Below are positions 3,825 to 20,137 of a stretch of 64,000 bases of DNA, piece by piece. Source of the stretch: an uncultured Flavobacteriaceae bacterium (lineage in GTDB: Bacteria > Bacteroidota > Bacteroidia > Flavobacteriales > Flavobacteriaceae). The stretch covers positions 186,001 to 250,000 of the forward strand of contig CANNAN010000003.1 of the NCBI GenBank assembly GCA_947502635.1. Direction: 5' to 3'. The position numbers and the translations under genes are program-made. Position 1 is the first letter of the stretch, and each line of letters opens with the position of its first letter. The notes beneath the pieces are model-generated. The model worked only from the letters and a program-made list of their open reading frames with translations, did no database searches and was not told the origin of the DNA.

Positions 3825-6056
3825 TTATTTCAAGCTTTCAAGAATTTGTTTGTAATTAGCATTATTCGGTGCTAGTTGAATAAGTTCAGAACAAGTTTTG
3901 TGTGCCTCCATATTCTGTTTTAAATTAATTTCACCGATTAATTTTACATACAACAAGTTTTCGTTTTTAGGAAAAAAAGCGAGCGCCTTATTAATAATTT
4001 CTATTGATTTTTGATTTAAATTTTCTGCTTGAAGTTTTAAGGCATAGTTATAGAAGGCACGAATATTTACAGGTTTTTTGTCGCATGCTTCGGCAAGATA
4101 TTTTAAAGCATTTTTAGTATCTCCAATTTCGTTAAATAGTAAGCCCAGCATATAATAAGAATTACTATAATCTGGTTCTATCTCAATAACTTTAAGGTAG
4201 AGATCTTTTGCATCCTGTATATGACCTTGTTTATAAAGTAATAATGCCAAATTCATTCTGGATAAATTATAACGATTGTCTATCTTTAAAGACCTTTTAT
4301 AGGCTGTAATAGCTAGGTCTGTATGGCCTTTCATTTCGTTATAAACAGCAATTTGATGTTGACCAGAAGCAAAATCTGCACTCATATCCAACATTTCTAA
4401 ATATTCTTTTTCAGCTTTATCAAAGTCACTATTACCTTTCATGTCAGTACCTAAACTAGTAAAGTACTTGACTGCTGCAATTCTTACTAATCTAATTGAA
4501 TCTTTGAGTAAAGGTTCAATATCGGCATGGTAATTTTGATCACGAATCTTTTCAAAAGAACGCACCGCTTCATTTCTTACAAGAATAGAAGAGTCTTTTA
4601 AGAACTTTCTAATATCATTAATCTCTTTATGAGATAATGAATTGTTTGTGTATTGATATAAAGCAGTTGCTCTTGCAATTTCTGGAAATTTATTTTGAGA
4701 TAATAATGTGTATAGTGCTTCATGATTACCGTTATATCCTTCTAATAGATAATTAGAAAAATGGTCTGGGCGTTTAGTGCCATATTTAGAGTCAATAAAT
4801 TTACTGGCCCATTCTGCAGTTTTGTCTTTATGGCATTCATTGCAGGCATTAGGAGTTCCGTATTTTAAAGATTGGTCTGGTCTGGGTACTCTAAAACTAT
4901 GATCACGCCTATAATCATTTCCCATATATATTTTACCAGTCATATGACAATTAATGCATTGGGCGCCTTCTGAGCCTATTTTGTGATAATGGTGTGATTC
5001 ACTATTGTATTTAGGCTCGTGACAACTTAAACACAGATTGTTTCCAGTTTGTTTGAGTTTTAATGAATGTGCATCATGGCAATCAACGCAAGTGACATCA
5101 TTTTGGTACATTTTACTTTGCATAAAAGAACCGTAAACATAGTCTTCATCTTTTATTTGACCGTCGAGTTCATAAATAGGGTCAATGAGTAAACTAGGAC
5201 TGTAATGGTCTAAAAAATGACCCTCATAATCAAATTTTTTCGTGATTTGTGACCTTCTGGAATGACACCTTGCACATTTTTCAACAAGACTTTTTGAAGC
5301 TAGAGATTTCCCCATATATAATTTCTGAGGAATAGAATCTTTAATGTCATTTTTATAAAAAGAGACATGATTACTAGCGGGCCCATGACAGGCTTCACAG
5401 CTCACATTAATTTCACTAAAGGTTGTATTGAAAGTATGTGTATTTGAGTCGAAATTTTTATCAAGATTTGTAGAGTGACAGTCTGCACAAGCTGTATTCC
5501 ATGTCATAGCGCCCCCTGTCCAGTTTATCCATTCATCGTGAGCTAATTCTAAATGAGGTTGTAAATGAAACCATTTGTTCTTTTCAGTATCCCAAGCGGT
5601 TATTAAACATTGGTAAGCCCCATCGGGAAACTTAACTATGTATTGCTGTAACGGTGTTACTCCAAAAGTATATACTATTTTATAATCCTGATAGTCCCCA
5701 TTTTTATCTGTAGTATTTACATAAAAATCATTTCCCTGTTTAAAAAAAGTGTTTTTAACACCTTGGTGCGTAAAGGTTTTATTATTAAAATCGCCTAAAA
5801 TACTTGTAGAGTCGGCTATTTTCATAGCTTGTTGGTGATGTGAATGATCCCAACTGTTATATTCTGATTTATGACAGTCTATACAAGCTTCTTTGCCTAC
5901 AAACTTTGCATGTTCAGCTTTATGAAGTAAATTACTTGTTGGCTGGTATTCATTTTTTTTACAAGAAAAAATTAGAAGACATATTATAAAGAGGCAACTG
6001 CCTTTTTCTAAATAATGACTCATTTTTTGACAATTGATAATTTTAAAAAAGCTCAT
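3825..6056 (-). CDS. Octaheme c-type cytochrome lipoprotein with C-terminal TPR repeats
   Basis: A 743-residue protein with eight CxxCH haem-binding motifs in the first ~420 residues (CIDCH, CADCH, CEACH, CARCH, CVDCH, CLSCH, CINCH, CNECH). A HEAT-like helical stretch and several TPR units (about residues 550-740) follow. The N-terminus has a hydrophobic segment ending in LLIFSC, a lipobox. An internal ATG at 6023 gives a shorter signal (MSHYLEKGS...) and may be the true start. The layout matches multihaem cytochrome c554/NrfA-like TPR proteins of Bacteroidota, which carry electrons outside the cytoplasm; the redox partner is unknown. It follows a 78-residue gene by 10 bases. Confidence 0.88.
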   Translation of the reverse strand: MSFFKIINCQKMSHYLEKGSCLFIICLLIFSCKKNEYQPTSNLLHKAEHAKFVGKEACIDCHKSEYNSWDHSHHQQAMKIADSTSILGDFNNKTFTHQGVKNTFFKQGNDFYVNTTDKNGDYQDYKIVYTFGVTPLQQYIVKFPDGAYQCLITAWDTEKNKWFHLQPHLELAHDEWINWTGGAMTWNTACADCHSTNLDKNFDSNTHTFNTTFSEINVSCEACHGPASNHVSFYKNDIKDSIPQKLYMGKSLASKSLVEKCARCHSRRSQITKKFDYEGHFLDHYSPSLLIDPIYELDGQIKDEDYVYGSFMQSKMYQNDVTCVDCHDAHSLKLKQTGNNLCLSCHEPKYNSESHHYHKIGSEGAQCINCHMTGKIYMGNDYRRDHSFRVPRPDQSLKYGTPNACNECHKDKTAEWASKFIDSKYGTKRPDHFSNYLLEGYNGNHEALYTLLSQNKFPEIARATALYQYTNNSLSHKEINDIRKFLKDSSILVRNEAVRSFEKIRDQNYHADIEPLLKDSIRLVRIAAVKYFTSLGTDMKGNSDFDKAEKEYLEMLDMSADFASGQHQIAVYNEMKGHTDLAITAYKRSLKIDNRYNLSRMNLALLLYKQGHIQDAKDLYLKVIEIEPDYSNSYYMLGLLFNEIGDTKNALKYLAEACDKKPVNIRAFYNYALKLQAENLNQKSIEIINKALAFFPKNENLLYVKLIGEINLKQNMEAHKTCSELIQLAPNNANYKQILESLK

Positions 6057-6066
6057 TAGGTGTTTT

Positions 6067-6303
6067 TTAGTTGCTATAAACTTCTCCGCGATGCGGTTTT
6101 AAAGTATCCCTTATAGGTTTCATTTTATCTTCATCAACAACTAAAAAGGCTATAGTATGTACTTCATTTAAGTTTTCAACGCCAGTAATAGAGATATTTA
6201 ATTTTTCTAATTGGATATATTCTTTTAAATGAATTTCATGATGTTCTGCTGTTTTACTAGCATTGGGTCCACGAAAATCCCATATAAGTTTTAATTTACG
6301 CAT
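6067..6303 (-). CDS. Conserved-looking small hypothetical protein
   Basis: A 78-residue soluble protein beginning MRKLKLIWDFRGPNASKTAE. It has no signal peptide or membrane helix and contains several His residues in its first half (AEHHEIHLKEY). Its alternating strands and helices suggest a small alpha/beta (ferredoxin-like) fold. I do not know its family. It is the first gene of a probable three-gene minus-strand unit with the octaheme cytochrome and the MFS transporter, and lies back-to-back with the chaperone cluster. Confidence 0.6.
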   Translation of the reverse strand: MRKLKLIWDFRGPNASKTAEHHEIHLKEYIQLEKLNISITGVENLNEVHTIAFLVVDEDKMKPIRDTLKPHRGEVYSN

Positions 6304-6383
6304 GAAAAAAAAGTAATTAATTGTAATTCAAATATAATCTAAAAAGCGTAATAATAGCCTTTTTTAATCGTTAGTAAAACAAC

Positions 6384-6413
6384 TTGTAATATAGGTTTAT
6401 ATTACTATTTTTG
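6384..6413 (+). promoter_or_regulatory. Promoter of the SurA/PpiC cluster
   Basis: TTG at 6384-6386 and TATTTTTG at 6406-6413 match the flavobacterial TTG-N17-23-TAnnTTTG promoter with 19 bases between elements. It lies 27 bases upstream of the ATG at 6441. Confidence 0.65.
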
Positions 6414-6440
6414 TAAACCATTGAATAATTTATAACTCCC

Positions 6441-8393
6441 ATGCAATTAAGATATTTATTTACTTTTTTATCGATCACATTAATATTAAACGTTAAAGCA
6501 CAATCAGCTCAAAAAGATGTTCTTTTTTTTGTTGATGATGATCCTGTTTACACATCTGAGTTTTTAAGAGTTTATAATAAAAACCTGGATTTAGTTCAAG
6601 ACGAATCACAAAAAGATGTTAATGAGTATTTAACACTGTTTACCAATTACAAATTAAAGCTTAAAGAAGCCAGAGCTTTGGGGCTTGACGATAAGCCATC
6701 ATATCAAAGAGAATTGTCTAGTTATAAGAAGCAGTTAACAAAAAGTTTTATGACAGATGCTAAGGTTACCGATGCTATGGTAGCAGAAGCTTATGAGCGT
6801 ATTTCCTATGAGGTTAAAGCAAATCATATTTTAATAAAGGTTTCAGAGAATGCAAGCCCAGAAGATTCTCTGATAGCTTATAATAAAATATTAAAGCTTC
6901 GAAATAGGACCTTAAAAGAAGGTTTTGAAGCTGTTAGAAAGGAAGTTCATAATGGACAAACTGTTTATGGTGAAGAACTAGGCTATTTTTCTGGTTTTAG
7001 AATGGTTTATAAATTTGAGACTGCAGCTTTTAATACAGAAATTGGAGACGTATCAAATCCTTTTAGAACACGTTTTGGATATCATATAGTCCATGTTTTA
7101 GATAAACGCAAATCTATGGGAGAGCGTAAGGTAGCACATATTATGGTGGTTGAAAAAAAAGGAGATTCTTTAGCCGAAAAACCAGAAGTTAGAATACAAG
7201 ATATTTATAAAAAAATTAATCAAGGAGAAGCCTTTGATGCATTAGCCAAACAATTCTCAGATGATAGAAACTCTGCTTCTAAAGGAGGAGAACTAAAATC
7301 TTTTTCTAGTGGACAATTGGGGTCACCAGAATTTGAAAATGTGGCATTTGGCTTAAAAGAGGTAAACGATATCTCTGAACCTTTTAAAACTAAATATGGG
7401 TGGCACATCGTTAAACTAATTGCTAAAAAAGCAATAGCACCGTTTGATGCAATGAGGTCAGAATTAGAAGAAAAAGTAAAACGAGATGATCGTTCTAAAT
7501 TAATAGATGAAGCTTTGTATGCATCATTAAAAGTAAAGTATAATATAGCAAAAGAACAACCGGCATTAGAATATTTTGAGTCTATACTTAATGAAAACTA
7601 TTATAAAAGAGCATGGCAATTACCGAGTGATTTTAGTGAAGATAAGCCATTAGTTAAAATTGGTGAGAAGCAGTTTCTATATAAAGATTTTGGAAACTAT
7701 TTAGTGAAAAAACAGCGAATGGGTATGCGAAAAGTGTCATATAAATCTATTGTTTTAAAAAATTACGAAGCTTTTTTGAATAGTAATTTAGTTAAATATC
7801 AGGAAGACAACTTAGAAACTGAAAATGAAGAATTTGCTCATATTGTTAATGAGTATCGAGATGGTTTGTTACTATTTGATTTAATGGAAAATACCATTTG
7901 GAATACAGCTAAAACAGATTCTGTTGGGGTTCAAGATTTTTACACTACACATAAAGATAAGTATGTATTACCGCAACGTATTGATGCCGTTGTAGCTTCT
8001 TCCGCAAAACAGAAAACTTTAAAAAAGGTTGCTAAATTATTGGATAAAGGCATGGATTTAGATCAAATTAAAAGCTTAGTAAATAGTAAAGATAAAATAG
8101 AAGTGATGTTTACATCAGGGATTATGGATGCTGGACATCAAGTGCTTCCTAAATCTTTTCCATTTAAAAAAGGTATTTCAAAGATTTATAATCATAACGG
8201 TACTTTTGTAGTTATTCAAGTAAAAGATGTATTAGAAAAAACGCAACAGACTTTAGATGAGGCTAAAGGAATTGTTATAAGTGATTATCAAACTTTTAAA
8301 GAAGAAAATTGGCTAAAAGATTTAAGTGAAAAATATAAAATAAAGATCAATCAAGAAGCTTTAAATAATATAAAAACTCAAATTAAAAAGTAG
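6441..8393 (+). CDS. Periplasmic peptidyl-prolyl isomerase with two parvulin domains (SurA/PpiC/PpiD-like)
   Basis: A 650-residue exported protein with an N-terminal signal (ends near NVKAQ). A SurA-type helical N-domain (YTSEFLRVYNKN...) is followed by two rotamase domains. One is at about residues 125-225 (ANHILIKV ... GYHIVHVLDKR), the other at about 230-330 (VAHIMVVEK ... GWHIVKLI). The C-terminal ~300 residues are helical. Such proteins assist folding of outer-membrane proteins. It starts a cluster of three related genes followed by a MoxR ATPase, and has a clear promoter upstream. Confidence 0.9.
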   Translation: MQLRYLFTFLSITLILNVKAQSAQKDVLFFVDDDPVYTSEFLRVYNKNLDLVQDESQKDVNEYLTLFTNYKLKLKEARALGLDDKPSYQRELSSYKKQLTKSFMTDAKVTDAMVAEAYERISYEVKANHILIKVSENASPEDSLIAYNKILKLRNRTLKEGFEAVRKEVHNGQTVYGEELGYFSGFRMVYKFETAAFNTEIGDVSNPFRTRFGYHIVHVLDKRKSMGERKVAHIMVVEKKGDSLAEKPEVRIQDIYKKINQGEAFDALAKQFSDDRNSASKGGELKSFSSGQLGSPEFENVAFGLKEVNDISEPFKTKYGWHIVKLIAKKAIAPFDAMRSELEEKVKRDDRSKLIDEALYASLKVKYNIAKEQPALEYFESILNENYYKRAWQLPSDFSEDKPLVKIGEKQFLYKDFGNYLVKKQRMGMRKVSYKSIVLKNYEAFLNSNLVKYQEDNLETENEEFAHIVNEYRDGLLLFDLMENTIWNTAKTDSVGVQDFYTTHKDKYVLPQRIDAVVASSAKQKTLKKVAKLLDKGMDLDQIKSLVNSKDKIEVMFTSGIMDAGHQVLPKSFPFKKGISKIYNHNGTFVVIQVKDVLEKTQQTLDEAKGIVISDYQTFKEENWLKDLSEKYKIKINQEALNNIKTQIKK

Positions 8394-8400
8394 GCGATAC

Positions 8401-9252
8401 GTGGGGGACAAAGTCATTATATTTTTTCTGTTATTAACAGTGTTGTCATGTGATTTTTTAAAAAAAACAGATGAACAAACTCCTATTGCTAGGGTAAATG
8501 AAACCTATTTATATTATGATGATATTAAAGATTTAGTGTCTGACTATACATCAAAAGAAGACAGTACTCTGGTGGTACAGAATTTTATTAATCGTTGGGC
8601 AACGCAGCAGTTATTTGTTGACGGTGCTATGTTTAATCTAAGTGAAGAAAAGCAAGAAACGTTTAACAAATTAGTGATTCAATATAAAAACGATTTATAT
8701 ACCAAAGCATACATAGAAGCTTTAATAAAAAGAAATATAGATACTATAGTCAATAGAAAAGAAGCTCAAGATTATTATAACAGTAATAAAGAAGTCTTTA
8801 AATTAAATGAAGAACTTCTTAAATTTCGTTACATACACGTTGATGAAAATATTATTGATTTTGAAAACATTAAAGAAAAGTTTAAACGTTATAATAGTAA
8901 TGATAAAAAAGAACTAGACTCTATATCTATACAGTTTAAATCCTATTCATTAAATGATTCTATTTGGATAAAATTGAATCAAATAGTTGATAAAATTCCA
9001 GGGGTTACTACCGAAAACAAAAATCAATTGTTAAAAAAATCTAATTTTGTACAACTCAAAGATTCATTAGGAGTATATTTGATGCAAATTAATGATGTTT
9101 TATTGAGAAGTGATAATGCTCCACTTGAGTATGTTAAACCTACCATAGATCAAATAGTTATTAATAATAGAAAGCTTGAGCTTATTAGAGAATTAGAAAA
9201 AGACATTACAAAAGATGCCATTAAAAATAAACAATTTGAAATTTACGATTAA
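8401..9252 (+). CDS. Lipoprotein, SurA/PpiC-like chaperone lacking a recognisable rotamase domain
   Basis: A 283-residue lipoprotein: hydrophobic start and lipobox TVLSC, followed by ARVNETYLYYDDIK, which recalls the entry of SurA N-domains. The remainder is helical and I see no second half of a parvulin domain (no GYHI-type segment). The start is GTG at 8401, seven bases after the stop of the preceding gene; no ATG serves the signal peptide. Its place between two parvulin-type genes argues for a shared role in outer-membrane protein assembly. Confidence 0.75.
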   Translation: MGDKVIIFFLLLTVLSCDFLKKTDEQTPIARVNETYLYYDDIKDLVSDYTSKEDSTLVVQNFINRWATQQLFVDGAMFNLSEEKQETFNKLVIQYKNDLYTKAYIEALIKRNIDTIVNRKEAQDYYNSNKEVFKLNEELLKFRYIHVDENIIDFENIKEKFKRYNSNDKKELDSISIQFKSYSLNDSIWIKLNQIVDKIPGVTTENKNQLLKKSNFVQLKDSLGVYLMQINDVLLRSDNAPLEYVKPTIDQIVINNRKLELIRELEKDITKDAIKNKQFEIYD

Positions 9253-10666
9253 TTTGAAACATATATCAGTCTTATGCATAGCTTTACTAGTAGTAAATGT
9301 TATGTCTGCGCAGGAAATTATTGAAGAGGAAGTAAAAGAAGAAGTCGTTAAAAAAGTAGATTCAACCTTATCTCAAAATGCTAAAAAAGTAGATGGTGTT
9401 GCTGCAGTAGTAGGTGATTATATTATTTTAGATTCTGATGTACCTAGAGAAAAAGAGCAGATAAGAGCAGCTGGAGGATCAGTAGAAGGCGTTACAGATT
9501 GCCAATTATTAGGAAAATTGCTGGAGAATAAATTATATGCACACCATGCTGTTCAGGATAGTATCCAGGTATCTGATGCAGAAATTAGACAAGAAGTTGA
9601 TTATACAATTCAACAATTTTTGCAGCAAAAGCCAGATATAGATGAACTTGTGAAGTTTTATAAGCAAGAAGATGAAAAAGGCCTGAGAGATTATATCTTT
9701 GAAATTATTAAGGGTAATAAACTTTCATCGAAGATGCAAGCTAAAATTGTTGAAGAGGTTGAGGTAACCCCTGAAGAAGTTCGTACATTTTTTGATAAAA
9801 TACCAGAAAATGAACTTCCCCTTTTTGGTACCGAACTTAAAGTTGCTCAAATTGTTGCCAAGCCAAAGGTCTCTAAAGAAGAAAAACAAAAAGTTATTGA
9901 TCGCTTAAAGCAATTTAAAGTTGACGTGGTTGAAAATGGTGCTAGTTTTCGTTCTAAGGTGGTGCTTTATGGAGAAGATCCAGGGTTGAAACAGTCAGGA
10001 TACATTTATACATTGAATAGAAAAAAGCCCAAGATGGTAAAAGAGTTTAGGCAAGTTGCTTTCTCTCTTCAAGAAGGAGAGGTTTCAGATCCTTTTGAGA
10101 CGGAGTATGGTTATCATATTATTCATTGTGAAAAAATTAGAGGACAGGAGTACGATGTAAGTCATGTTTTACTATTTCCAAAAGTTTCAAGTGAAGCTAT
10201 TAAAGAAGCTAAAGAACGTTTAGAAAAAGTAAGACAACGTATTGTTGATGGAGATATTACGTTTGCAGATGCCGCAAGAGAGACAAGTGATGAAAAAGAA
10301 ACTCGAGGAGATGGCGGTCAACTTATTAACCCACGAACTCAAGATTATAATTTTGATTTGACAAAAATGGGACCAGAACAGTACGCCCAAATTCAAAATT
10401 TAAAAGATAATGAAGTTAGTCAGGTTTTAACAGAACAAGATCGTAAAGGGAATCTTTCTTATAAGATTATGAAGGTTACAGATAGAATAGACGAGCATAA
10501 AGCGAGCTATGCAAGAGATTATTTAAAAATTAAAGAATTAGCACTTAAAGAAAAACAAATTGATGCTATTGAAAAATGGCAAGAAGAAAAAATATTAGAC
10601 ACTTATATAAAAATAAGTGGAAAATTTAGAGACTGTGATTTTTCTGGTAATTGGCTAAAAAAGTAA
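9215..10666 (+). CDS. surA: SurA-type periplasmic peptidyl-prolyl isomerase
   Basis: A 483-residue exported chaperone. A signal peptide ends near VMSAQ. A SurA N-domain (VAAVVGDYIILDSDV) leads to two parvulin domains, at about 205-305 (LKVAQIVAKP ... GYHIIHCEKIRG) and 310-410 (DVSHVLLFP ... GDGGQL). The ATG at 9215 overlaps the previous gene by 38 bases. A TTG at 9254, directly after that gene's stop, would give a more usual signal peptide (LKHISVLCIALLVV) and is a fair alternative start. Third chaperone gene in the cluster. Confidence 0.85.
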   Translation: MPLKINNLKFTINLKHISVLCIALLVVNVMSAQEIIEEEVKEEVVKKVDSTLSQNAKKVDGVAAVVGDYIILDSDVPREKEQIRAAGGSVEGVTDCQLLGKLLENKLYAHHAVQDSIQVSDAEIRQEVDYTIQQFLQQKPDIDELVKFYKQEDEKGLRDYIFEIIKGNKLSSKMQAKIVEEVEVTPEEVRTFFDKIPENELPLFGTELKVAQIVAKPKVSKEEKQKVIDRLKQFKVDVVENGASFRSKVVLYGEDPGLKQSGYIYTLNRKKPKMVKEFRQVAFSLQEGEVSDPFETEYGYHIIHCEKIRGQEYDVSHVLLFPKVSSEAIKEAKERLEKVRQRIVDGDITFADAARETSDEKETRGDGGQLINPRTQDYNFDLTKMGPEQYAQIQNLKDNEVSQVLTEQDRKGNLSYKIMKVTDRIDEHKASYARDYLKIKELALKEKQIDAIEKWQEEKILDTYIKISGKFRDCDFSGNWLKK

Positions 10667-10670
10667 ATAT

Positions 10671-11624
10671 ATGTCTGATGTAGCTGCCATCGAACAATTT
10701 GTAAAACAATACAAAGATTTAAAAACTGAAATTGCAAAGGTTATCATAGGGCAAGAAACCGTTGTAAATCAAATATTAATCTCAATTTTTTCAGGAGGCC
10801 ATTCCTTACTTATAGGGGTTCCTGGTTTAGCAAAAACATTAATGGTTAATACGATTGCGCAAGCATTAGGATTAGATTTCAAGCGTATTCAATTCACACC
10901 AGATTTAATGCCTAGTGATATATTAGGTAGTGAGATCTTAGATGAAGACCGTCATTTTAAATTTATAAAAGGGCCCATTTTTTCGAATATTATTTTAGCC
11001 GACGAGATTAATAGAACACCGCCTAAAACACAGGCTGCTCTTTTAGAAGCTATGCAAGAAAGGTCTGTAACTGTTGCTGGGCATCATTATAAGTTAAGTT
11101 TACCATACTTTGTTTTAGCGACGCAGAACCCTATTGAGCAAGAAGGAACTTATCCGTTACCTGAAGCCCAATTAGACCGTTTTATGTTTGCAATTAATTT
11201 AGATTACCCTTCTTTTAAAGAAGAAGTAGCAGTCGTTAAAGCAACTACTTCAGATACTCAAGTGAAAGTGAATTCTTTGCTTTCAGCACAACAAATAATC
11301 GATTTTCAACATCTTATACGCCGTATTCCAGTAGCAGATAATGTTATTGAATATGCGGTTACTATGGTAAGTAAAACGAGACCTAAAGGCGATGAAGCTA
11401 CAGATTTGGTAAAGACATACTTAGATTGGGGTGCCGGTCCAAGAGCCTCTCAAAACTTAATTTTAGCAGCAAAAACACATGCAGCTATTCATGGTAAATT
11501 TTCTCCAGATATTGAAAATGTTCAAGCCGTAGCAAATAGTATTTTAAGGCATAGAATCATTAAAAACTATAAGGCAGAGGCAGAAGGTATTTCAGAAGAA
11601 GATATTATCAAAAGTTTGTTTTAG
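10671..11624 (+). CDS. MoxR-family AAA+ ATPase
   Basis: A 317-residue cytosolic AAA+ ATPase of the MoxR/RavA group. Walker A is GVPGLAKT (residues 49-56), Walker B is ILADEINRT (about 108-116) and the sensor segment is LATQNPIEQEGTYPLPEAQLDRF. MoxR ATPases act as chaperones for maturation of protein complexes, often with DUF58/VWA proteins. Those partners are not next to it here: almost 500 non-coding bases and acnB follow. It begins four bases after the SurA-like gene, so it belongs to that transcript. Confidence 0.92.
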   Translation: MSDVAAIEQFVKQYKDLKTEIAKVIIGQETVVNQILISIFSGGHSLLIGVPGLAKTLMVNTIAQALGLDFKRIQFTPDLMPSDILGSEILDEDRHFKFIKGPIFSNIILADEINRTPPKTQAALLEAMQERSVTVAGHHYKLSLPYFVLATQNPIEQEGTYPLPEAQLDRFMFAINLDYPSFKEEVAVVKATTSDTQVKVNSLLSAQQIIDFQHLIRRIPVADNVIEYAVTMVSKTRPKGDEATDLVKTYLDWGAGPRASQNLILAAKTHAAIHGKFSPDIENVQAVANSILRHRIIKNYKAEAEGISEEDIIKSLF

Positions 11625-12114
11625 TGAAATTTAAACAATTAATACCTTCCTCTAGTCATTTTTCTAGTGGATTTAGTGACAACTTACATTGAATTTTGCT
11701 GAAAATTATACATCTTAAATAGGCTTTTAACGAAGAATTTACTTATCACATTAGCTCCTTTATTAAGGTTTTGGTAATAATAAATGCAATAATTAAATCG
11801 ATCATCATTTACAAAAGCAAGTAATTTGTTAAATCATTAATTTATTACAATTTTTCTATTAAAATGTTAACCATTTTATTTTTTAATACCACTATAATAA
11901 TTTCATATAATACGTTAGAGTATTCTCATTATTATTTTTAAATCTTTGCATTAAATTCGTATTTTGCGTCACTTTTGAAATAAAATTTAATATTACTTTT
12001 TTGGCATTTGACATTGATATGATTAAAGGGAAAATACACTTATAATATAAAGTGTGGGTGCTGTTTCTTCAACTAATTATTGTCGTGCCAATTTAACATT
12101 CAAATACTTCTTTT
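11625..12114 (+). other. 490-base gap between moxR and acnB with an acnA-start remnant
   Basis: Very AT-rich and without an intact gene. The one recognisable thing is a copy of the first codons of acnA at 12001-12030, described separately. Just upstream, GTATTTTGCGTC (about 11960) resembles the TTATTTTGTATC that precedes acnA, so the similarity may include the promoter region. Confidence 0.7.
12001..12045 (+). pseudogene. Duplicated 5' end of acnA, or 14-codon leader ORF
   Basis: TTGGCATTTGACATTGATATG reads (L/M)AFDIDM, followed by IKG, the same ten residues that open acnA at 15068 ([10 protein letters not shown]). After GGG the match is lost and the frame ends at TAA 12043-12045, giving a 14-codon ORF with TTG in place of ATG. 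It sits 70 bases before acnB. The simplest reading is a remnant of an older acnA copy or a rearrangement point; a translated leader peptide is possible but unsupported. Confidence 0.6.
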
Positions 12115-14889
12115 ATGAACTATAACGATTACATCAAGGAAATCGAAGAAAGAAAAGCTCAAGGATTGAGCCCTAAGCCAATTGATGGTGCCGAATTATT
12201 AAGCGAAATTATTTCGCAAATTAAAGATATTGATAATGAGCATCGAGAAGATTCCCTTAAATTCTTTATTTATAATGTCTTACCAGGTACCACTAGTGCT
12301 GCAGGAGTAAAGGCTAAATTCTTAAAGGAAATTATTCTTGGTGAATCGGTAGTAGAAGAAATTACACCTGCCTTTGCCTTTGAACAATTATCACACATGA
12401 AAGGTGGGCCTTCAATAGGGGTATTGTTAGACTTAGTATTAGGAAATGATAATTCTATTGCGCAAGAAGCTGCTAAAGTTTTAAAAACACAAGTTTTCCT
12501 CTATGAAGCAGATACAGAGCGTTTAGAGAAGGCTTATAATAATGGAAGTAAAATAGCAAAAGAGATCATAGAAAGTTACGCTAAAGCAGAATTCTTTACA
12601 AAATTACCAGAGATTGATGAAGAGATTGAGGTAGTTACATATATTGCAGGTGTAGGAGATATTTCAACAGATTTATTATCTCCAGGTGGTGATGCGCATT
12701 CTAGATCAGATCGTGAATTACATGGTCAGTGTTTATTTGAGCATAACAAAGAGATGCAAAACGAACTTTTAGCTTTAAAAGAAACACACCCAGATAAACG
12801 TGTGATGCTAATTGCAGAAAAAGGAACCATGGGCGTTGGTTCGTCAAGAATGTCAGGTGTTAACAATGTAGCACTATGGACAGGCGTTAAATCTAGTCCT
12901 TACGTGCCATTCATTAATATAGCTCCTGTAATCGCAGGAACAAATGGTATTTCTCCAATTTTCTTAACCACTGTTGGTGTAACAGGAGGTATTGGTTTAG
13001 ATTTAAAAAACTGGGTAAAACAAAAAGATGCTGAAGGAAATACAATTGTTGATGCAGATGGTGAACCTGTTTTAAAACAAGAATATTCTGTTGAAACAGG
13101 AACAGTTCTTACTATTAATACTAAAGAGAAGAAGCTTTATAAAGAAGGTAAGGAATTAAAAGATATTTCTGCTGCATTCACGCCTCAGAAAATGGAATTT
13201 ATGAAAGCAGGAGGTTCTTATGCTGTTGTTTTTGGTAAAAAATTACAAACATTTGCTGCTAAGGTGTTAGGAATAGAAGCACCTCAAGTATATGCAACGT
13301 CAAAAGAAATTTCTATTGAAGGACAAGGATTAACAGCAGTAGAAAAAATATTCAATAAAAATGCGGTAGGCATTACGCCAGGTAAAACATTGCATGCAGG
13401 TTCAGATGTACGTGTTGAAGTTAATATTGTAGGTTCTCAAGATACTACAGGGTTAATGACGTCACAGGAGTTAGAAATGATGGCGGCGACGGTAATTTCT
13501 CCAATTGTTGATGGAGCTTACCAATCAGGATGTCACACCGCTTCAGTTTGGGATAATAAGTCTAAAGCTAACATTCCAAGGTTAATGCAATTTATGAATG
13601 ACTTCGGATTAATCACTGCGCGTGACCCAAAAGGTCAATACCATGCCATGACAGATGTAATCCACAAAGTATTAAACGATATCACTGTAGGTGATTGGGA
13701 TATTATTATTGGTGGTGATTCTCACACACGTATGTCAAAAGGAGTCGCTTTTGGAGCAGATTCAGGAACAGTTGCCTTAGCGCTTGCTACAGGAGAAGCT
13801 TCAATGCCAATTCCAGAATCAGTTAAAGTAACTTTTAAAGGTGGTATGAAATCTTATATGGATTTCCGTGATGTGGTGCATGCAACACAACAACAAATGT
13901 TAAAGCAGTTTGGAGGAGAAAACGTATTTCAAGGACGTATTATTGAGGTTCACATAGGTACTCTAACCGCAGATCAAGCCTTCACATTTACTGACTGGAC
14001 TGCAGAAATGAAAGCTAAAGCATCGATCTGTATTTCAGAAGATGACACTTTAATTGAATCATTAGAAATTGCTAGAGATCGTATCCAAATCATGATTGAT
14101 AAAGGAATGGATAACGAAAAGCAAGTACTTAAAGGTTTAGTAGATAAAGCGAATGCTAGAATTACAGAGGTTAAAACAGGAATTAAACCAGCTTTAAGAC
14201 CTGATGCTAATGCCAAATACCATGCGGAGGTTGTAATTGATTTAGATGAGATTGCTGAACCAATGATTGCCGATCCAGATGTAAACAATGATGACGTTTC
14301 TAAACGTTATACACACGATACAATTAGACCATTATCTTACTATGGCGGTACTAAAAAAGTAGATTTAGGGTTCGTAGGATCTTGTATGGTTCACAAAGGA
14401 GATATGAAAATTTTAGCTCAAATGTTAAAGAACATTGAGGCACAACACGGTAAAGTTGAGTTTAAAGCGCCGTTAGTCGTTGCTCCACCAACTTACAATA
14501 TTGTTGATGAGTTAAAAGCAGAAGGAGACTGGGAAGTGTTACAAAAATACTCAGGATTTGAGTTCGATGATAATGCACCAAAAGGTTTAGCACGTACTAA
14601 ATATGGAAACATGTTGTATTTGGAACGTCCTGGATGTAACTTATGCATGGGTAATCAAGAAAAAGCTGAGCCAGGTGATACTGTAATGGCTACATCAACA
14701 CGTTTATTCCAAGGAAGGGTTGTTAAAGATTCTGGTGAGAAAAAAGGTGAGTCTTTATTATCATCAACTCCAGTAGTTGTATTATCTACAATTTTAGGTA
14801 GAACACCTAATATGGAGGAGTATGAAGCTGCAGTTGAGGGTATTGTATTAACTAAGTTTAAGCCATCTCAAAAACAATTAGTTATATAA
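12115..14889 (+). CDS. acnB: Aconitate hydratase B (bifunctional aconitase/2-methylisocitrate dehydratase type)
   Basis: Interconverts citrate and isocitrate in the TCA cycle using a [4Fe-4S] cluster. The 924 residues have the AcnB layout: an N-terminal HEAT-like helical domain (about 1-160), then the swivel domain (HSRSDRELHGQCLFEHNKEM, GVGSSRMSG), then the catalytic domains with GGDSHTRMSKG, GSCMVHKGD and the cluster-binding GCNLCMGNQ near residue 840. AcnB often also handles 2-methylisocitrate. It is followed by a strong terminator and then by a second, unrelated-architecture aconitase. Confidence 0.96.
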   Translation: MNYNDYIKEIEERKAQGLSPKPIDGAELLSEIISQIKDIDNEHREDSLKFFIYNVLPGTTSAAGVKAKFLKEIILGESVVEEITPAFAFEQLSHMKGGPSIGVLLDLVLGNDNSIAQEAAKVLKTQVFLYEADTERLEKAYNNGSKIAKEIIESYAKAEFFTKLPEIDEEIEVVTYIAGVGDISTDLLSPGGDAHSRSDRELHGQCLFEHNKEMQNELLALKETHPDKRVMLIAEKGTMGVGSSRMSGVNNVALWTGVKSSPYVPFINIAPVIAGTNGISPIFLTTVGVTGGIGLDLKNWVKQKDAEGNTIVDADGEPVLKQEYSVETGTVLTINTKEKKLYKEGKELKDISAAFTPQKMEFMKAGGSYAVVFGKKLQTFAAKVLGIEAPQVYATSKEISIEGQGLTAVEKIFNKNAVGITPGKTLHAGSDVRVEVNIVGSQDTTGLMTSQELEMMAATVISPIVDGAYQSGCHTASVWDNKSKANIPRLMQFMNDFGLITARDPKGQYHAMTDVIHKVLNDITVGDWDIIIGGDSHTRMSKGVAFGADSGTVALALATGEASMPIPESVKVTFKGGMKSYMDFRDVVHATQQQMLKQFGGENVFQGRIIEVHIGTLTADQAFTFTDWTAEMKAKASICISEDDTLIESLEIARDRIQIMIDKGMDNEKQVLKGLVDKANARITEVKTGIKPALRPDANAKYHAEVVIDLDEIAEPMIADPDVNNDDVSKRYTHDTIRPLSYYGGTKKVDLGFVGSCMVHKGDMKILAQMLKNIEAQHGKVEFKAPLVVAPPTYNIVDELKAEGDWEVLQKYSGFEFDDNAPKGLARTKYGNMLYLERPGCNLCMGNQEKAEPGDTVMATSTRLFQGRVVKDSGEKKGESLLSSTPVVVLSTILGRTPNMEEYEAAVEGIVLTKFKPSQKQLVI

Positions 14890-14916
14890 CCTAAATATTA
14901 AATCAATTATAAATAA

Positions 14917-14946
14917 AAGCTCAAGTTATTAACTTGGGCTTTTTTT
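14917..14946 (+). terminator. Rho-independent terminator after acnB
   Basis: AAGCTCAAGTT (14917-14927) pairs with AACTTGGGCTT (14931-14941, one G-T pair) around a three-base loop and runs into a T tract to 14946. Confidence 0.85.
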
Positions 14947-15067
14947 ATGGCTTTATTGAAGTGTTTTTTACTTTCACAGGGGAGTGATTTTTCTATTTTT
15001 CAATGGTGTACTTATTTTGTATCTTGGTAGGCACTTAAGCAAGAAACAAAAACTTAAAACATTTTTT

Positions 15068-17335
15068 ATGGCATTTGACATCGATATGATCAAAGGTGTA
15101 TACACCAAAATGGCTGAACGCGTTGATAAAGCACGTGAAATAGTTGGGAAACCATTAACGCTTTCTGAAAAGATTTTATATTCTCATCTTTGGGAAGGCA
15201 ACCCTACAAAGACGTTCGAAAGAGGAAAGGATTATGTGGATTTTGCACCCGATAGAATAGCATGCCAAGATGCCACAGCGCAAATGGCATTATTACAGTT
15301 TATGCAAGCTGGAAAAGCTAAAGTAGCTGTACCAACTACAGTGCATTGTGATCATTTAATCCAAGCGAAAGAAGGCGCTAAAACAGATTTAAAACATGCA
15401 AATACTGTAAGCAGTGAGGTATTTGATTTCTTAGCATCTGTTTCTAACAAATATGGTATTGGTTTTTGGAAACCAGGTGCAGGAATTATTCATCAGGTAG
15501 TTTTAGAAAATTATGCATTCCCAGGGGGTATGATGATTGGTACCGATTCACATACAGTTAATGCTGGTGGGTTAGGAATGGTAGCTATTGGTGTTGGAGG
15601 TGCAGATGCTGTTGATGTTATGGCAGGTATGGCTTGGGAATTAAAGTTTCCTAAACTAATAGGCGTGAGATTAACTGGTAAATTATCTGGTTGGACAGCG
15701 CCAAAAGATGTTATTTTAAAAGTAGCAGAAATTCTTACTGTAAAAGGAGGAACAGGAGCTATTGTTGAATATTTTGGCCCAGGAGCAACGTCCATGTCTT
15801 GTACAGGAAAAGGTACTATTTGTAACATGGGGGCTGAAATTGGAGCTACAACATCAACATTTGGCTATGATGATTCTATGGAACGTTATTTACGCGCTAC
15901 AGATAGATCTGATGTTGCAGATGCTGCAAATAACATAAAAGAACATTTAACTGCAGATGCTGAGGTATATGCAAATCCTGAACACTATTTTGATCAGGTT
16001 ATTGATATAAATTTATCAGAATTAGGTCCGCTTTTAAACGGACCATTTACACCAGATTTATCAACAGAGGTCGGTTCAGCAATGACTGAAAAAGCAAAAG
16101 CGAATGATTGGCCAATAAAAGTAGAATGGGGATTGATAGGTTCTTGTACAAACTCTTCTTATGAAGATTTATCAAGAGCGTCCTCAATTGCTCAACAAGC
16201 TATTGATAAAGGCTTAAAAATGAAAGCCGAATTAGGAATCAACCCAGGTTCAGAGCAAGTACGTTACACAGCAGAACGTGATGGTATTCTTGGGATTTTT
16301 GAAAATCTAGACGCTAAAATATTCACCAATGCATGTGGGCCATGTATTGGACAATGGGCAAGATATAGTGATCCTAAAAATGCACCAAAGAATAGTATAG
16401 TGCATTCATTCAATAGAAACTTTGCTAAACGTGCTGATGGAAACCCTAATACACATGCATTTGTTGCTTCACCAGAATTAACAGCGGCTATAGCTGTGGC
16501 AGGTCGTTTAGACTTTAACCCATTAACAGATAAACTAATTAATGAAAATGGCCAAGAAGTTATGTTTGATGAACCAACAGGATGGGAATTACCTCCTAAA
16601 GGTTTTGATGTAGAAGATGCAGGTTATGTAGAACCAGTTGTAGATGGGAGTGGCGTAGAAGTATCTGTGAGTCCAACATCAGAGCGATTACAGTTATTAA
16701 CACCATTTACACCAATTGGAGGTGAAATAGGAGGTGCTAAATTATTAATTAAAGCCTTTGGTAAATGTACTACAGACCATATTTCTATGGCTGGGCCTTG
16801 GTTACGTTTCCGTGGACATTTGGATAATATTTCTAATAACTGTTTAATTGGAGCAGTTAATGCATTTGGGCAAAAAACAAACTTTGTTAAAAACCAATTA
16901 ACTGGTGATTTTGGTGGTGTACCTGATACCGCTAGAGCTTATAAAGTTGCAGGAGTTAAAACCATTGTTGTAGGAGATCATAACTATGGTGAAGGTTCTT
17001 CAAGAGAGCATGCAGCTATGGAACCAAGACATTTAGGAGTTGCTGCTGTTATTGTAAAATCGTTTGCGCGTATTCATGAAACAAACCTTAAGAAACAAGG
17101 TATGTTAGGATTAACATTTGCTAATGAGTCAGATTACGATTTAATCCAAGAAGATGATACTTTCAATTTTGTAGATTTAAATGAATTTGCTCCAGGTAAA
17201 CAATTAACATTAGAAGCAGTTCATGCAGATGGATCTAAAGATATTATTATGTTGAATCACACCTATAACGATGCACAAATCGCATGGTATAACGAAGGTT
17301 CTGCGCTTAACCTAATTAAGAAACAAAACGTATAA
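15068..17335 (+). CDS. acnA: Aconitate hydratase (AcnA/mitochondrial-type)
   Basis: Second aconitase of the TCA cycle, 755 residues when started at ATG 15068 ([15 protein letters not shown]). The longer open frame from 14984 adds a hydrophobic stretch that is really promoter and leader DNA. Visible motifs are [14 protein letters not shown], the cluster Cys in [11 protein letters not shown] and in [10 protein letters not shown], and the substrate-binding [17 protein letters not shown] near the C-terminus. The length fits the mitochondrial-type enzyme rather than the longer IRP-like bacterial AcnA. It has its own terminator-like palindrome downstream. Confidence 0.95.
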
Positions 17336-17342
17336 TAGACTT

Positions 17343-17375
17343 AAATCTGCAAGGTTTTGAAAACCTTGCAGATTT
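17343..17375 (+). terminator. Perfect palindrome/terminator after acnA
   Basis: AAATCTGCAAGGTTT (17343-17357) and AAACCTTGCAGATTT (17361-17375) are perfect inverted copies around TGA, seven bases after the acnA stop. The T run is weak, so it may be a repeat-type palindrome that doubles as a terminator. The remaining bases to 17673 hold no gene, only two copies of ACCCTAAAAA at 17444 and 17606. Confidence 0.7.
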
Positions 17376-17673
17376 ATTTATAACATCAAAACCCTGTTTT
17401 TAACTGGATTTTTAGTTTCAATTCGTATTATTTTGGACTACTTACCCTAAAAAGGAGGGCTTTCACTATTTAATCTTTTTTAAAACAGCATTGCAAAGGA
17501 AGAACGATTGATAGAATCCACTAAATCCCGTTTCTGCCTATATAGTTTATTAGTCTATGTTTTTTAATGAAAGTTTTTGAATTTTCAGATGGATACTAAA
17601 TGACTACCCTAAAAATAGTTTAAACTTCATATACAATTAGCATATTGTTAGCAAATTGGTTTTTAAATTAATC

Positions 17674-19821
17674 TTAATGTTCTATCACAAGCTTCTTAAT
17701 ACCAATTACCGTATTGTTTTTCATTATTTTAACTATATAGATACCTGAAGAGAGGTTTTGAGTATTAATAACACCTTTGTTTTTAATATTAGATGATTGA
17801 ATAACCACTTTTCCATAAATATTTATAACACTAACCTCATTATCAATACCATTTAAACCAGACAACGTTACAAACTCATCTGAAGGGTTAGGATACATAG
17901 TGATTTTTTGCGAAACTAAGTTCGTCTCATTGATTGATAAAGATCCACTATGGCTTAGTTCAATCATTCCCCAGCAAGAGTCAAAAGTTCCTATATTTAG
18001 TATTGTCATACCAGAATTGGTTTCGAGTGATAAATCTATAGAGGGCTTATTAGGCATGTGTAATTTTGCTCCTGTAATGGCGTTTGGAAATGTTGCTGAA
18101 GGTATTTTTACAGAAATGCCATCATGAGTTTGAGCCTCGTCCTCACTCGCATTGTATTTACGGTTAAGTAAATGAAGTACATACGGTGCTTCAGTTTTAG
18201 AGGACATTCTTGGTAAGGCAGATATAAGGTCATTACTGACTGTATTTTCGCTTAATACATCGATTTTCCATGAAAGAAGCTGTGTTATCCCATTAGGGTT
18301 GTTAATTGAAACTGCTTTGGCTCCAGTACTACTAAAAATAGCATTCTGTTCTGCAGTTAAGTATTGTATATCACTATCATAAACAACGGCATCATATTCT
18401 TCTAATTGTTCTGTAGTAGGGGTAATTGGGCGATCAGGGTCACCAAAAATCTTCAGATCAAATGAAATGTTCTCTTCTACAAGGTATTTTAAAGTTTGAC
18501 GCGCGGTGATGCTGCCATCCATACCAGATTCTAGGAGTGATGCATAGACCGAATATGCAAGCGCTACATTTGAAACGGCCTGATAATCGTCAAGTAATTC
18601 ACTGTTATCATGAACAAACTCATACAAATCTGCATAGACCTCCCATCCTGGATCCCAGGTAGGATATCCCGAACCAAGCCATATGTTTCCTGGTATAGTA
18701 AAGACGGAACCCATAGCATAGGCCTGTGCTATCCATCCACGAGCCTGACGTGGGGCACTTCTATCATATAATGCCGCAAATGCGTCAGGGTAAGGGAAAT
18801 AGATTAAGGTTTTATTAAGTGCTTCAGCTGCTTTGTAGTGCAACATGGGCTTAAATGGAGGACTTGTAGTGACGTCATGAGCGTGAAAAAATTCACCAGC
18901 CAAATAGGTTTGTCGATCTGAAAAAACAAAGCCACGAGCTTCAATAAGATTTGTTGTGGCACCTATTGCAATACCTGGCTTCTTTGTGTCAATGTATTCG
19001 AATAACGCATCCATAACATCATTCAATGCCTGACGCTGAAAGTAGACAAAATCGTCGTATAAAGGAATATTTCCATTAATCCTAAAAGCTTGTTGTTTAT
19101 AACTGTTTAGGGTAAAGCCTTTACCGAGTAAAAAATTACGATAATTGAAATTATCAATATCATTTATTTCTAGAGCGCTTAACTCTGGCGTGGTGTATTT
19201 TTCTTTTAGATATTCTCTGAAGTTATTCATTGAATGAACAGAGAAGTCCCCTCCCAGCCAATGCAAAGTTCGTGAAGCAGAAGTTTGGGAATCGATCATC
19301 AGGTGGGTAATCGGAGCAAGATCTATTCGATCAACCTGATATTTCAGCCATTCCAAAAACTCAGGACCATGATGACTCTGCCAGCTATGGGCGTGTCCAT
19401 TGTGTACTGTACCCGTCCAAAGGATATCATTGCCATTCAGATCCTGTGCCCAGTATGATCCAGGATCATTCATGAAGTCTATCATCCATTTCCAGCCCCA
19501 GTCAAACTCAATACGACCAAAAAAATATTCGCCGTTTGATACGCGATTCTCTACATCTGCGGCCCAGTTATTCATGGCCACATCAGAGCTAATGCCATTA
19601 TATAACATATGCCCCCAGAAAACGCCGTCCGCCTTATATTTATCATAATTGAAGGCTGTTGCGCTTGATTTTTGAGTAAACAGAATAATAGATTTTTTAA
19701 TAGGGGCAATTTCTGCACTTGTATTTAAATTAGAAGAAGTATCATAAGATGCCGATAATTGCTCCTGAGCATTTATATTTATAGTACAGAAAACTATGAA
19801 TAGAATCGTTAATTTATACAT
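17674..19821 (-). CDS. Secreted glycoside-hydrolase-like protein with T9SS sorting domain
   Basis: About 715 residues from ATG 19821, whose signal MYKLTILFIVFCTININAQ fits better than the longer frame from 19860. The first ~450 residues alternate strand and helix and are rich in Trp, Tyr, Asp and Glu (EFDWGWKWMIDF, YPTWDPGWEVYADLYEF). They look like a TIM-barrel glycosidase with a following beta-galactosidase-trimerisation-like domain; no exact GH family can be assigned. The last ~75 residues (MYPNPSDEFVTLSG ... GIYIVKI) are a type A T9SS C-terminal sorting domain, so it is exported across the outer membrane. Base composition looks slightly less AT-rich than its neighbours. Confidence 0.75.
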   Translation of the reverse strand: MYKLTILFIVFCTININAQEQLSASYDTSSNLNTSAEIAPIKKSIILFTQKSSATAFNYDKYKADGVFWGHMLYNGISSDVAMNNWAADVENRVSNGEYFFGRIEFDWGWKWMIDFMNDPGSYWAQDLNGNDILWTGTVHNGHAHSWQSHHGPEFLEWLKYQVDRIDLAPITHLMIDSQTSASRTLHWLGGDFSVHSMNNFREYLKEKYTTPELSALEINDIDNFNYRNFLLGKGFTLNSYKQQAFRINGNIPLYDDFVYFQRQALNDVMDALFEYIDTKKPGIAIGATTNLIEARGFVFSDRQTYLAGEFFHAHDVTTSPPFKPMLHYKAAEALNKTLIYFPYPDAFAALYDRSAPRQARGWIAQAYAMGSVFTIPGNIWLGSGYPTWDPGWEVYADLYEFVHDNSELLDDYQAVSNVALAYSVYASLLESGMDGSITARQTLKYLVEENISFDLKIFGDPDRPITPTTEQLEEYDAVVYDSDIQYLTAEQNAIFSSTGAKAVSINNPNGITQLLSWKIDVLSENTVSNDLISALPRMSSKTEAPYVLHLLNRKYNASEDEAQTHDGISVKIPSATFPNAITGAKLHMPNKPSIDLSLETNSGMTILNIGTFDSCWGMIELSHSGSLSINETNLVSQKITMYPNPSDEFVTLSGLNGIDNEVSVINIYGKVVIQSSNIKNKGVINTQNLSSGIYIVKIMKNNTVIGIKKLVIEH

Positions 19822-20137
19822 TAAAAAGAACTTTAATTGGAAAATTAGTTTAAAGTGCAAGTTAGTTAAAAAACATGAAATGAATTGATTAACTTTTTGA
19901 AACGAATTTTTAGAAAGAAAAATTAGTTTTTTTGCTTGTTAATTTGTTTTGCATTTATTGATATTTTCTGGATGTACCTATTTGATGACTTATATTGGAA
20001 GCTAAACAAAGATTTTATTTTTTTATAACGTTAAATAATACTCTAAATTAATTAGCATACACAGTTGTAGCACATTAAAAGAATAAATTATTTTAATTCA
20101 AGATATTCAAAATTGTATTTTTACAAAAATTTCTAAA

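Follow-up and report, generated by a model that had tools for sequence, protein, structure and literature searches.

A relict of an aconitase gene start as the probable left seam of an inserted or exchanged acnB unit in an uncultured Flavobacteriaceae bacterium

How do the first codons of one aconitase gene come to stand in front of another? The question is raised by a window of 64,000 nt (the whole stretch of DNA that was analysed) from an uncultured Flavobacteriaceae bacterium (GCA_947502635.1, contig CANNAN010000003.1, positions 186,001–250,000 of the forward strand), in which acnB is followed by a second aconitase gene, referred to here as acnA (Table 1). Upstream of acnB, positions 12001–12045 read TTG GCA TTT GAC ATT GAT ATG ATT AAA GGG AAA ATA CAC TTA TAA, that is, ten codons that translate as the acnA start, four further codons and a stop, with TTG as the first codon, just as a first-pass annotation of this DNA had described. 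The stop is separated by 69 bases from the ATG of acnB (12115), and the same ten residues open acnA at 15068. The best local match joins 11997–12029 to 15064–15096 with 30 of 33 bases identical (score 25.5, against a best of 17.0 in 300 shuffled pairs), and the ungapped direct repeat is 48 nt long (11982–12029 and 15049–15096, spacing 3067). When an 81-nt segment was searched against the whole 5.44 Mb genome at E ≤ 0.001, it matched itself and the acnA start, and nothing else. The upstream copy, called the relict below, is matched by an acnA-start profile over acnA nt 2–55 (16.1 bits). The earlier annotation had also noticed acnA-promoter-like words further upstream; this likeness holds for about 20 bases before the start.

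The gene upstream exceeds the cut-off of the model NF006690 (949 bits, cut-off 782) and lies below that of TIGR00117 (375 bits, cut-off 1287). The downstream aconitase scores 1072 bits with the mitochondrial-type model TIGR01340 (cut-off 825) and stays below the cut-offs of the AcnA models (247 bits with TIGR01341, cut-off 945), so the label acnA, which goes back to the first reading, is kept as a nickname only. Apart from acnB and an antisense frame within it, the stretch from moxR to acnA has no frame of at least 60 aa, and no inverted pairs with one arm at each end of the acnB-containing unit were found. A transposon or IS insertion was ruled out, there being no transposase-sized frame besides acnB and no flanking inverted repeats. 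A tRNA at the site was likewise ruled out (none in 5000–20000), as was an Rfam family (a single match, E 0.41, far under the family threshold). A scan for sigma-70-type promoters gave 15 sites where 14.3 were expected, the consensus being uninformative for this phylum. On visual inspection, the acnB–acnA spacer contains a hairpin and T run resembling a terminator (14917–14947), and some relatives have similar ones; a consensus terminator scan placed no site in 14890–15067, nor at 14917–14947.

Table 1. Features of the moxR–acnB–acnA locus, in positions of the window
Feature	Position	Strand	Basis
MoxR-like AAA ATPase gene, left neighbour	10671..11624	+	Pfam AAA_3 2e-62, bpMoxR 5e-9
Presumed promoter region now before acnB	11871..11996	+	Homology to acnA upstream of acnB-less genus members
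acnA-start relict (left repeat copy, 48 nt)	11982..12029	+	Repeat, genome search, profile match
Residual relict frame, no sign of conserved coding	12001..12045	+	Frame comparison
Post-relict tail, common to G003, G010, G011 and partly G005	12030..12084	+	Alignments
acnB-proximal leader (gtgccaatttaacattcaaatacttctttt)	12085..12114	+	By eye, from printed leaders, without motif statistics
acnB, aconitate hydratase B type, 924 aa	12115..14889	+	NF006690; Aconitase_B_N, Aconitase_2_N, Aconitase
acnB–acnA spacer: terminator-like hairpin (by eye), then acnA leader	14890..15067	+	Sub-stretch comparison
Intact acnA start, right repeat copy	15049..15096	+	Direct repeat
'acnA', mitochondrial-type aconitase, 755 aa	15068..17335	+	TIGR01340

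We consider it likely that an acnB unit was inserted at the acnA start, or exchanged across it, with the relict as its left seam, and that the relict is a scar rather than a working peptide. The unit would consist of acnB together with the region now before acnA, about 3.07 kb in all, lying between a moxR-side promoter region and the acnA start. In the acnB-less state the presumed moxR-side promoter region stands directly before acnA; acnB would have entered at the acnA start, leaving the first acnA codons behind as the relict, and would have taken over the old promoter, with acnA running downstream from a second one. Such a unit, carrying acnA-start direct repeats on both sides, could later have been exchanged among relatives by recombination, since an acnA start on either side makes a crossover possible on the left, within the relict or the upstream region, and on the right at acnA. 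The lineage of the window would then be a recombinant that combines the unit with the acnA 5′ end typical of acnB-less relatives. Gene order, upstream homology, the patchy occurrence of acnB, conflicts between trees and relicts in other genera all lend support to the earlier suggestion that the aconitase pair has been rearranged.

Among the seven members of the genus that have acnB, six carry the relict upstream of the gene (G000, G003, G005, G007, G010 and G011). It was found by DNA search in G003, G005 and G010 and recognised by reading in G007 and G011; a profile search gave 25.2 bits for G007, and G005 and G011 were not among its matches. No relict accompanies acnB at this seam in G004, a member of the genus, or in G028, from another genus. 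The first-pass annotation had held that absence from all relatives, combined with the lack of a transcript, would reduce the segment to a strain-specific scar. Inspection of the acnB upstream region rules this out, as relicts are present in genus members and in other genera. The relict-bearing genus members also have the post-relict tail in common, so the transfer of an older relict is possible.

The region before the relict resembles the acnA upstream region of relatives that have no acnB. In local alignments, 11871–11996 scores 30.5–47.5 against the acnA upstream of five acnB-less genus members and 16.0 against the acnA upstream of the window itself, where the maximum over 500 shuffled pairs is 29.5. 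For eight acnB-bearing loci, taking the 130 bases that precede the relict (acnB itself in loci that lack one), scores against the same five genomes run from 24.5 to 70.5. They exceed the shuffle maximum in all 32 comparisons with G008, G009, G006 and G002 and in six of eight with G001, and the same regions score 10.5–25.0 against their own acnA upstream. In a count of 40 comparisons with the four genomes other than G001, 35 lie above the maximum, as do most of those with G001. Against G016 and G017, which belong to other genera and lack acnB, they score 19.5–31.0, and the more distant acnB-less G012 and G022 do not have the upstream region in common (11.0–16.0). The window's own acnA upstream gives 21–31 against the acnB-less genomes, partly above the shuffles. 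With the upstream cut into three stretches and z averaged over the five acnB-less genomes, the sub-stretches before six relicts have a mean z of 2.3 to 8.8 (single values down to −1.2), and in five species those ahead of their own acnA lie between −0.9 and 1.6; the acnA upstream of the window yields 4.9 for its last 40 nt, 2.2 for the middle and −0.6 beyond 90 nt. Gapped identity over 100 nt of the window gives no clear separation (67–70 of 93–94 before the relict against 61–69 before acnA). The upstream stretches would presumably act as promoters.

The occurrence of acnB in relatives is patchy. A full-length acnB is present in 7 of 12 genus members and in 12 of the 60 genomes examined, five further genomes having weak matches only, and a wider draw from the family found it in 53 of 299 genomes and 44 of 236 genera. 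In each of the five acnB-less genus members the shared upstream region is followed by a single match, at the acnA start. In seven of nine acnB-less stretches acnA lies downstream of a moxR-like gene, directly or after other genes, and in the remaining two moxR falls outside the stretch. The order moxR, acnB, acnA is whole in 5 of 11 acnB-bearing stretches; among 80 named acnB loci it is found in 50. These 80 are the top-ranking ones among at least 591 stretches and therefore no fair sample of acnB. Several relatives (L051 (G004), L061, L062 and L068) carry unrelated frames in the spacer between moxR and the aconitase gene, of 562–566 aa on the opposite strand and of 383 aa in G004, membrane proteins by eye, and the spot thus accepts other insertions too.

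Gene trees disagree over the history of the locus. The rpoB tree has a clade of G000, G005 and G011 with full support (100/100), which is rejected by acnB (p 0.009) and by acnA (p 1.4e-6), and the presence and absence of acnB require at least five state changes on the rpoB tree of 18. In the acnB tree, rejection of the genus as one clade failed (p 0.27). Over nt 1–750 of acnA, one clade (100/98) contains five acnB-bearing members, and another (96/98) unites the window with the five acnB-less members. Uniting all seven acnB-bearing members is not rejected for this part (AU p 0.10) and is rejected for nt 751–1500 (p 9e-5), and for nt 1501–2262 it is the union of the window with the acnB-less members that is rejected (p 1.5e-6). 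The placement of the window thus conflicts along the gene, making acnA a mosaic. Its first 377 bases are 89–90% identical to those of acnB-less genus members and 77–81% identical to those of acnB-bearing ones. In most genus members the presence or absence of acnB goes with the acnA 5′ allele; the window looks like a recombinant in which acnB precedes an acnA whose 5′ end is of the acnB-less type. The segment trees exclude the acnB-less G016 because its acnA (L067) is disturbed after about 1 kb, with one in-frame stop and a drop in identity, perhaps through a frameshift or an assembly fault. We infer that acnB was gained here rather than lost elsewhere, and recombination would be what moved the unit.

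The reverse course of events is quite possible, if short of probable. With the acnB-bearing state ancestral in the genus, the 48-nt repeats, or the acnB leader and the acnA start, would recombine and delete acnB, leaving acnA on the acnB promoter. The acnB-less genus members show what such a deletion would leave, a shared upstream region leading into the acnA start. The frequent order moxR, acnB, acnA among the best named loci and the repeated state changes speak for it as well, and in the rpoB tree the early branches include the acnB-bearing G010, G004 and G003, albeit with weak support and with the acnB-less G017, of another genus, among them. Deletion alone, however, creates no relict before an intact acnB, and the acnB-less type of the window's acnA 5′ end suggests gain. 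Remnants of acnB were sought in seven acnB-less spacers and found in none, which leaves a past loss unproven. Deletion and insertion are not exclusive, and both may have happened.

Other explanations would give the relict a function or none at all. The first-pass annotation had proposed a leader peptide mimicking the AcnA N-terminus, and a conserved peptide of this kind, controlling acnB, might be read into the ten codons that the window keeps in frame with a possible TTG start and into the 28-codon frame kept in G007. The window relict is, however, one of only two in the genus still in frame: in four of six (G003, G005, G010 and G011) the frame is broken within seven codons, with MTLA, MALTSI, VAF and MAL read before the stop, and MAFNIDMIKKIYRQFTECVGTVHTQVSL followed by a stop is among the six genus frames. 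The frames of eight Flavobacterium relicts end after 5–13 codons, the start codon varies between ATG, GTG and TTG, and G004 and G028 have acnB without any relict. With the frames broken in most genus relicts there is no conserved peptide, and a conserved leader controlling acnB would be very improbable. It is also unlikely, though less so, that the relict persists because it supplies the 5′ arm of an acnB-leader hairpin, and that this hairpin, not a peptide, acts on acnB expression. Folding pairs the relict with the tail just before the acnB-proximal leader (12076–12093 being able to pair with it in RNA) in a long hairpin at 12001–12093 of the window, with a z of −3.04 that 1 of 200 shuffles equalled. 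The leaders of G003, G010, G005 and G011 reach −2.64, −2.18, −1.79 and −1.24, relict and tail pair in all five species (shuffled-arm p 0.001–0.021), and two pairs are changed on both sides. A covariance model of these five leaders, run on 84 loci, refound four training sequences strongly and four other acnB leaders weakly (G004, L083, L212 and L072, just before acnB, E 0.0007–0.004), with acnA starts among the weak rest. Each covariation measure on the five sequences was, on the other hand, matched by 103 to 264 of 500 shuffles, z is only −0.26 in G007 (+0.63 and −1.27 in the relict-free G004 and G028), Rfam matches all lie below family thresholds, and acnA leaders are more structured (mean z −1.58). 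Over 107 loci, 21 leaders with a relict, hand-picked from earlier results, were no more structured than the remaining 86 (mean z −0.51, against −0.71 for the latter; p 0.79) at a 100-nt cut that clips the hairpin of the window. A chance resemblance, finally, has nothing but the AT-rich sequence in its favour, and is made next to inconceivable by the shuffles, the genome search, the profile controls and the recurrence in relatives.

Relicts of the acnA start are also found beyond the genus. The 350 bases before acnB were compared with the acnA start of the same locus in 75 loci, comprising 10 further ones and 65 named ones from the 80 top-ranking among at least 591 stretches (15 of the 80 have no acnA start downstream in the stretch; G021, on the same contig as L091, and G054, whose stretch has no acnA, were dropped). 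A p of at most 0.005 was reached in 15 of the 75 and a score of at least 15 in 14. Five controls (the acnB start; acnA upstream against the acnB start; mid-gene codons; acnA upstream against the acnA start; and the reverse complement) gave zero or one of 75 by the former measure and none by the latter. In a further set of 40 loci, reduced to 32 by removing four duplicates and four without a usable acnA, the two thresholds were passed by three and one loci respectively, against none in 160 control tests. A profile built from 106 acnA starts reached 4 bits or more in 9 of 107 acnB upstream regions and in no member of any of the seven control sets (107 each); in the other 98 loci no relict was detected at this level. 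The longest relicts come from two Aquimarina records (219 nt at 66% and 232 nt at 61%), Tenacibaculum finnmarkense (175 nt, 61%) and Chryseobacterium (135 nt, 68%), several in Flavobacterium span 24–65 nt, and an uncultured Roseivirga record has a relict with a profile score of 9.1 bits. In acnA positions the relicts reach to about 29–55 in the window, 91 in G007, 93 in Tenacibaculum, 172 in Chryseobacterium and about 200 in Aquimarina, and scattered weaker matches inside acnA were taken as chance. These lengths fit one ancient insertion, refreshed at its left edge by exchange, as well as several insertions.

In some loci the acnA-like start has become part of acnB itself. Six Flavobacterium loci (L123, L135, L137, L145, L130 and L131) have six in-frame codons before acnB, MALANE and MAFDNE for example, with Met1 of acnB where acnA has Met7. 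L145 has ACG at the usual Met codon, so the upstream, captured ATG is probably used. In Aquimarina (L076 and L090), acnB begins with MALYNDY. Comparison of the fused codons with the acnA of the same locus supports an acnA origin in L131 (p 0.002), L145 (0.004) and L123, L135 and L137 (0.02–0.03), and the likeness to acnA of the starts in L130, L076 and L090 is only a resemblance. A wider generalisation can be offered tentatively, as a doubtful though conceivable one: across Bacteroidota, acnB may dock and be exchanged repeatedly at the acnA-type start, where the relict would serve as left homology arm for swapping acnB in or out, and acnB would be handed the acnA promoter and in some lineages, as in the Flavobacterium and Aquimarina fusions, also the translation start.

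Insertion or exchange at the acnA start has counterparts in known routes of gene gain. In homology-facilitated illegitimate recombination, DNA that has been taken up is integrated through one homologous anchor and one non-homologous joint. An anchor in acnA with a non-homologous joint, hypothetical here, would yield a seam such as the present one; several joints and one ancient joint are indistinguishable in this material. Allelic replacement exchanges gene variants through conserved flanks, and here too the state of acnB goes with the acnA 5′ allele in most genus members, the window being recombinant-like. In contrast to allelic replacement, the boundary of exchange lies at the start codon and a duplicate of the start is left behind.

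The seam pattern works like insertion with long target duplication, as described for restriction-modification genes of Helicobacter (Nobusato et al., 2000, as summarised in PMC1643837; also referenced in PMC3031569). In that system, so far as the summary goes, a variably present gene is flanked by a direct repeat of its target, and the empty site holds one copy. The 48-nt repeat, 81% identical, flanks the extra gene acnB in the same manner, and the empty site with a single copy is present in the five acnB-less genus members. Unlike the Helicobacter case as summarised there, an enzyme of central metabolism is the cargo here and the gene start of a related enzyme serves as target; the left copy has decayed, and the pattern recurs at this target in several genera. 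In the literature covered, which consisted mostly of titles and the beginnings of abstracts and lay largely outside the subscription journals, no description of an aconitase seam of this kind was found. If insertion or exchange at the acnA start is right, the locus offers a base-level view of how a second enzyme of central metabolism is slotted between a promoter and its resident gene: the newcomer gains a promoter, the resident a second one, and the short direct repeat makes the state reversible in principle. On the same premise, an apparent mimic peptide before a gene can be a scar of recombination, and scars at one site, in several genera and in differing states of decay, would form a series.

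The acnB-proximal leader deserves a separate remark. Its consensus, typed by eye, resembles the acnA start as an older relict might (0.001–0.002 against shuffles); taken individually, leaders match the acnA start with p ≤ 0.05 in 11 of 75 loci (2 and 4 of 75 in controls), some of them being fused starts. A leader of roughly the type GCCTTTAACATTGAAAAGACTTCTATT, judged by eye, stands just before acnB in the window (12085–12114) and in L105, L101, L094, L125, L133, L218 and L242. The leader may travel together with acnB, and similar ones can be seen in many of the printed loci, including Cytophagales records.
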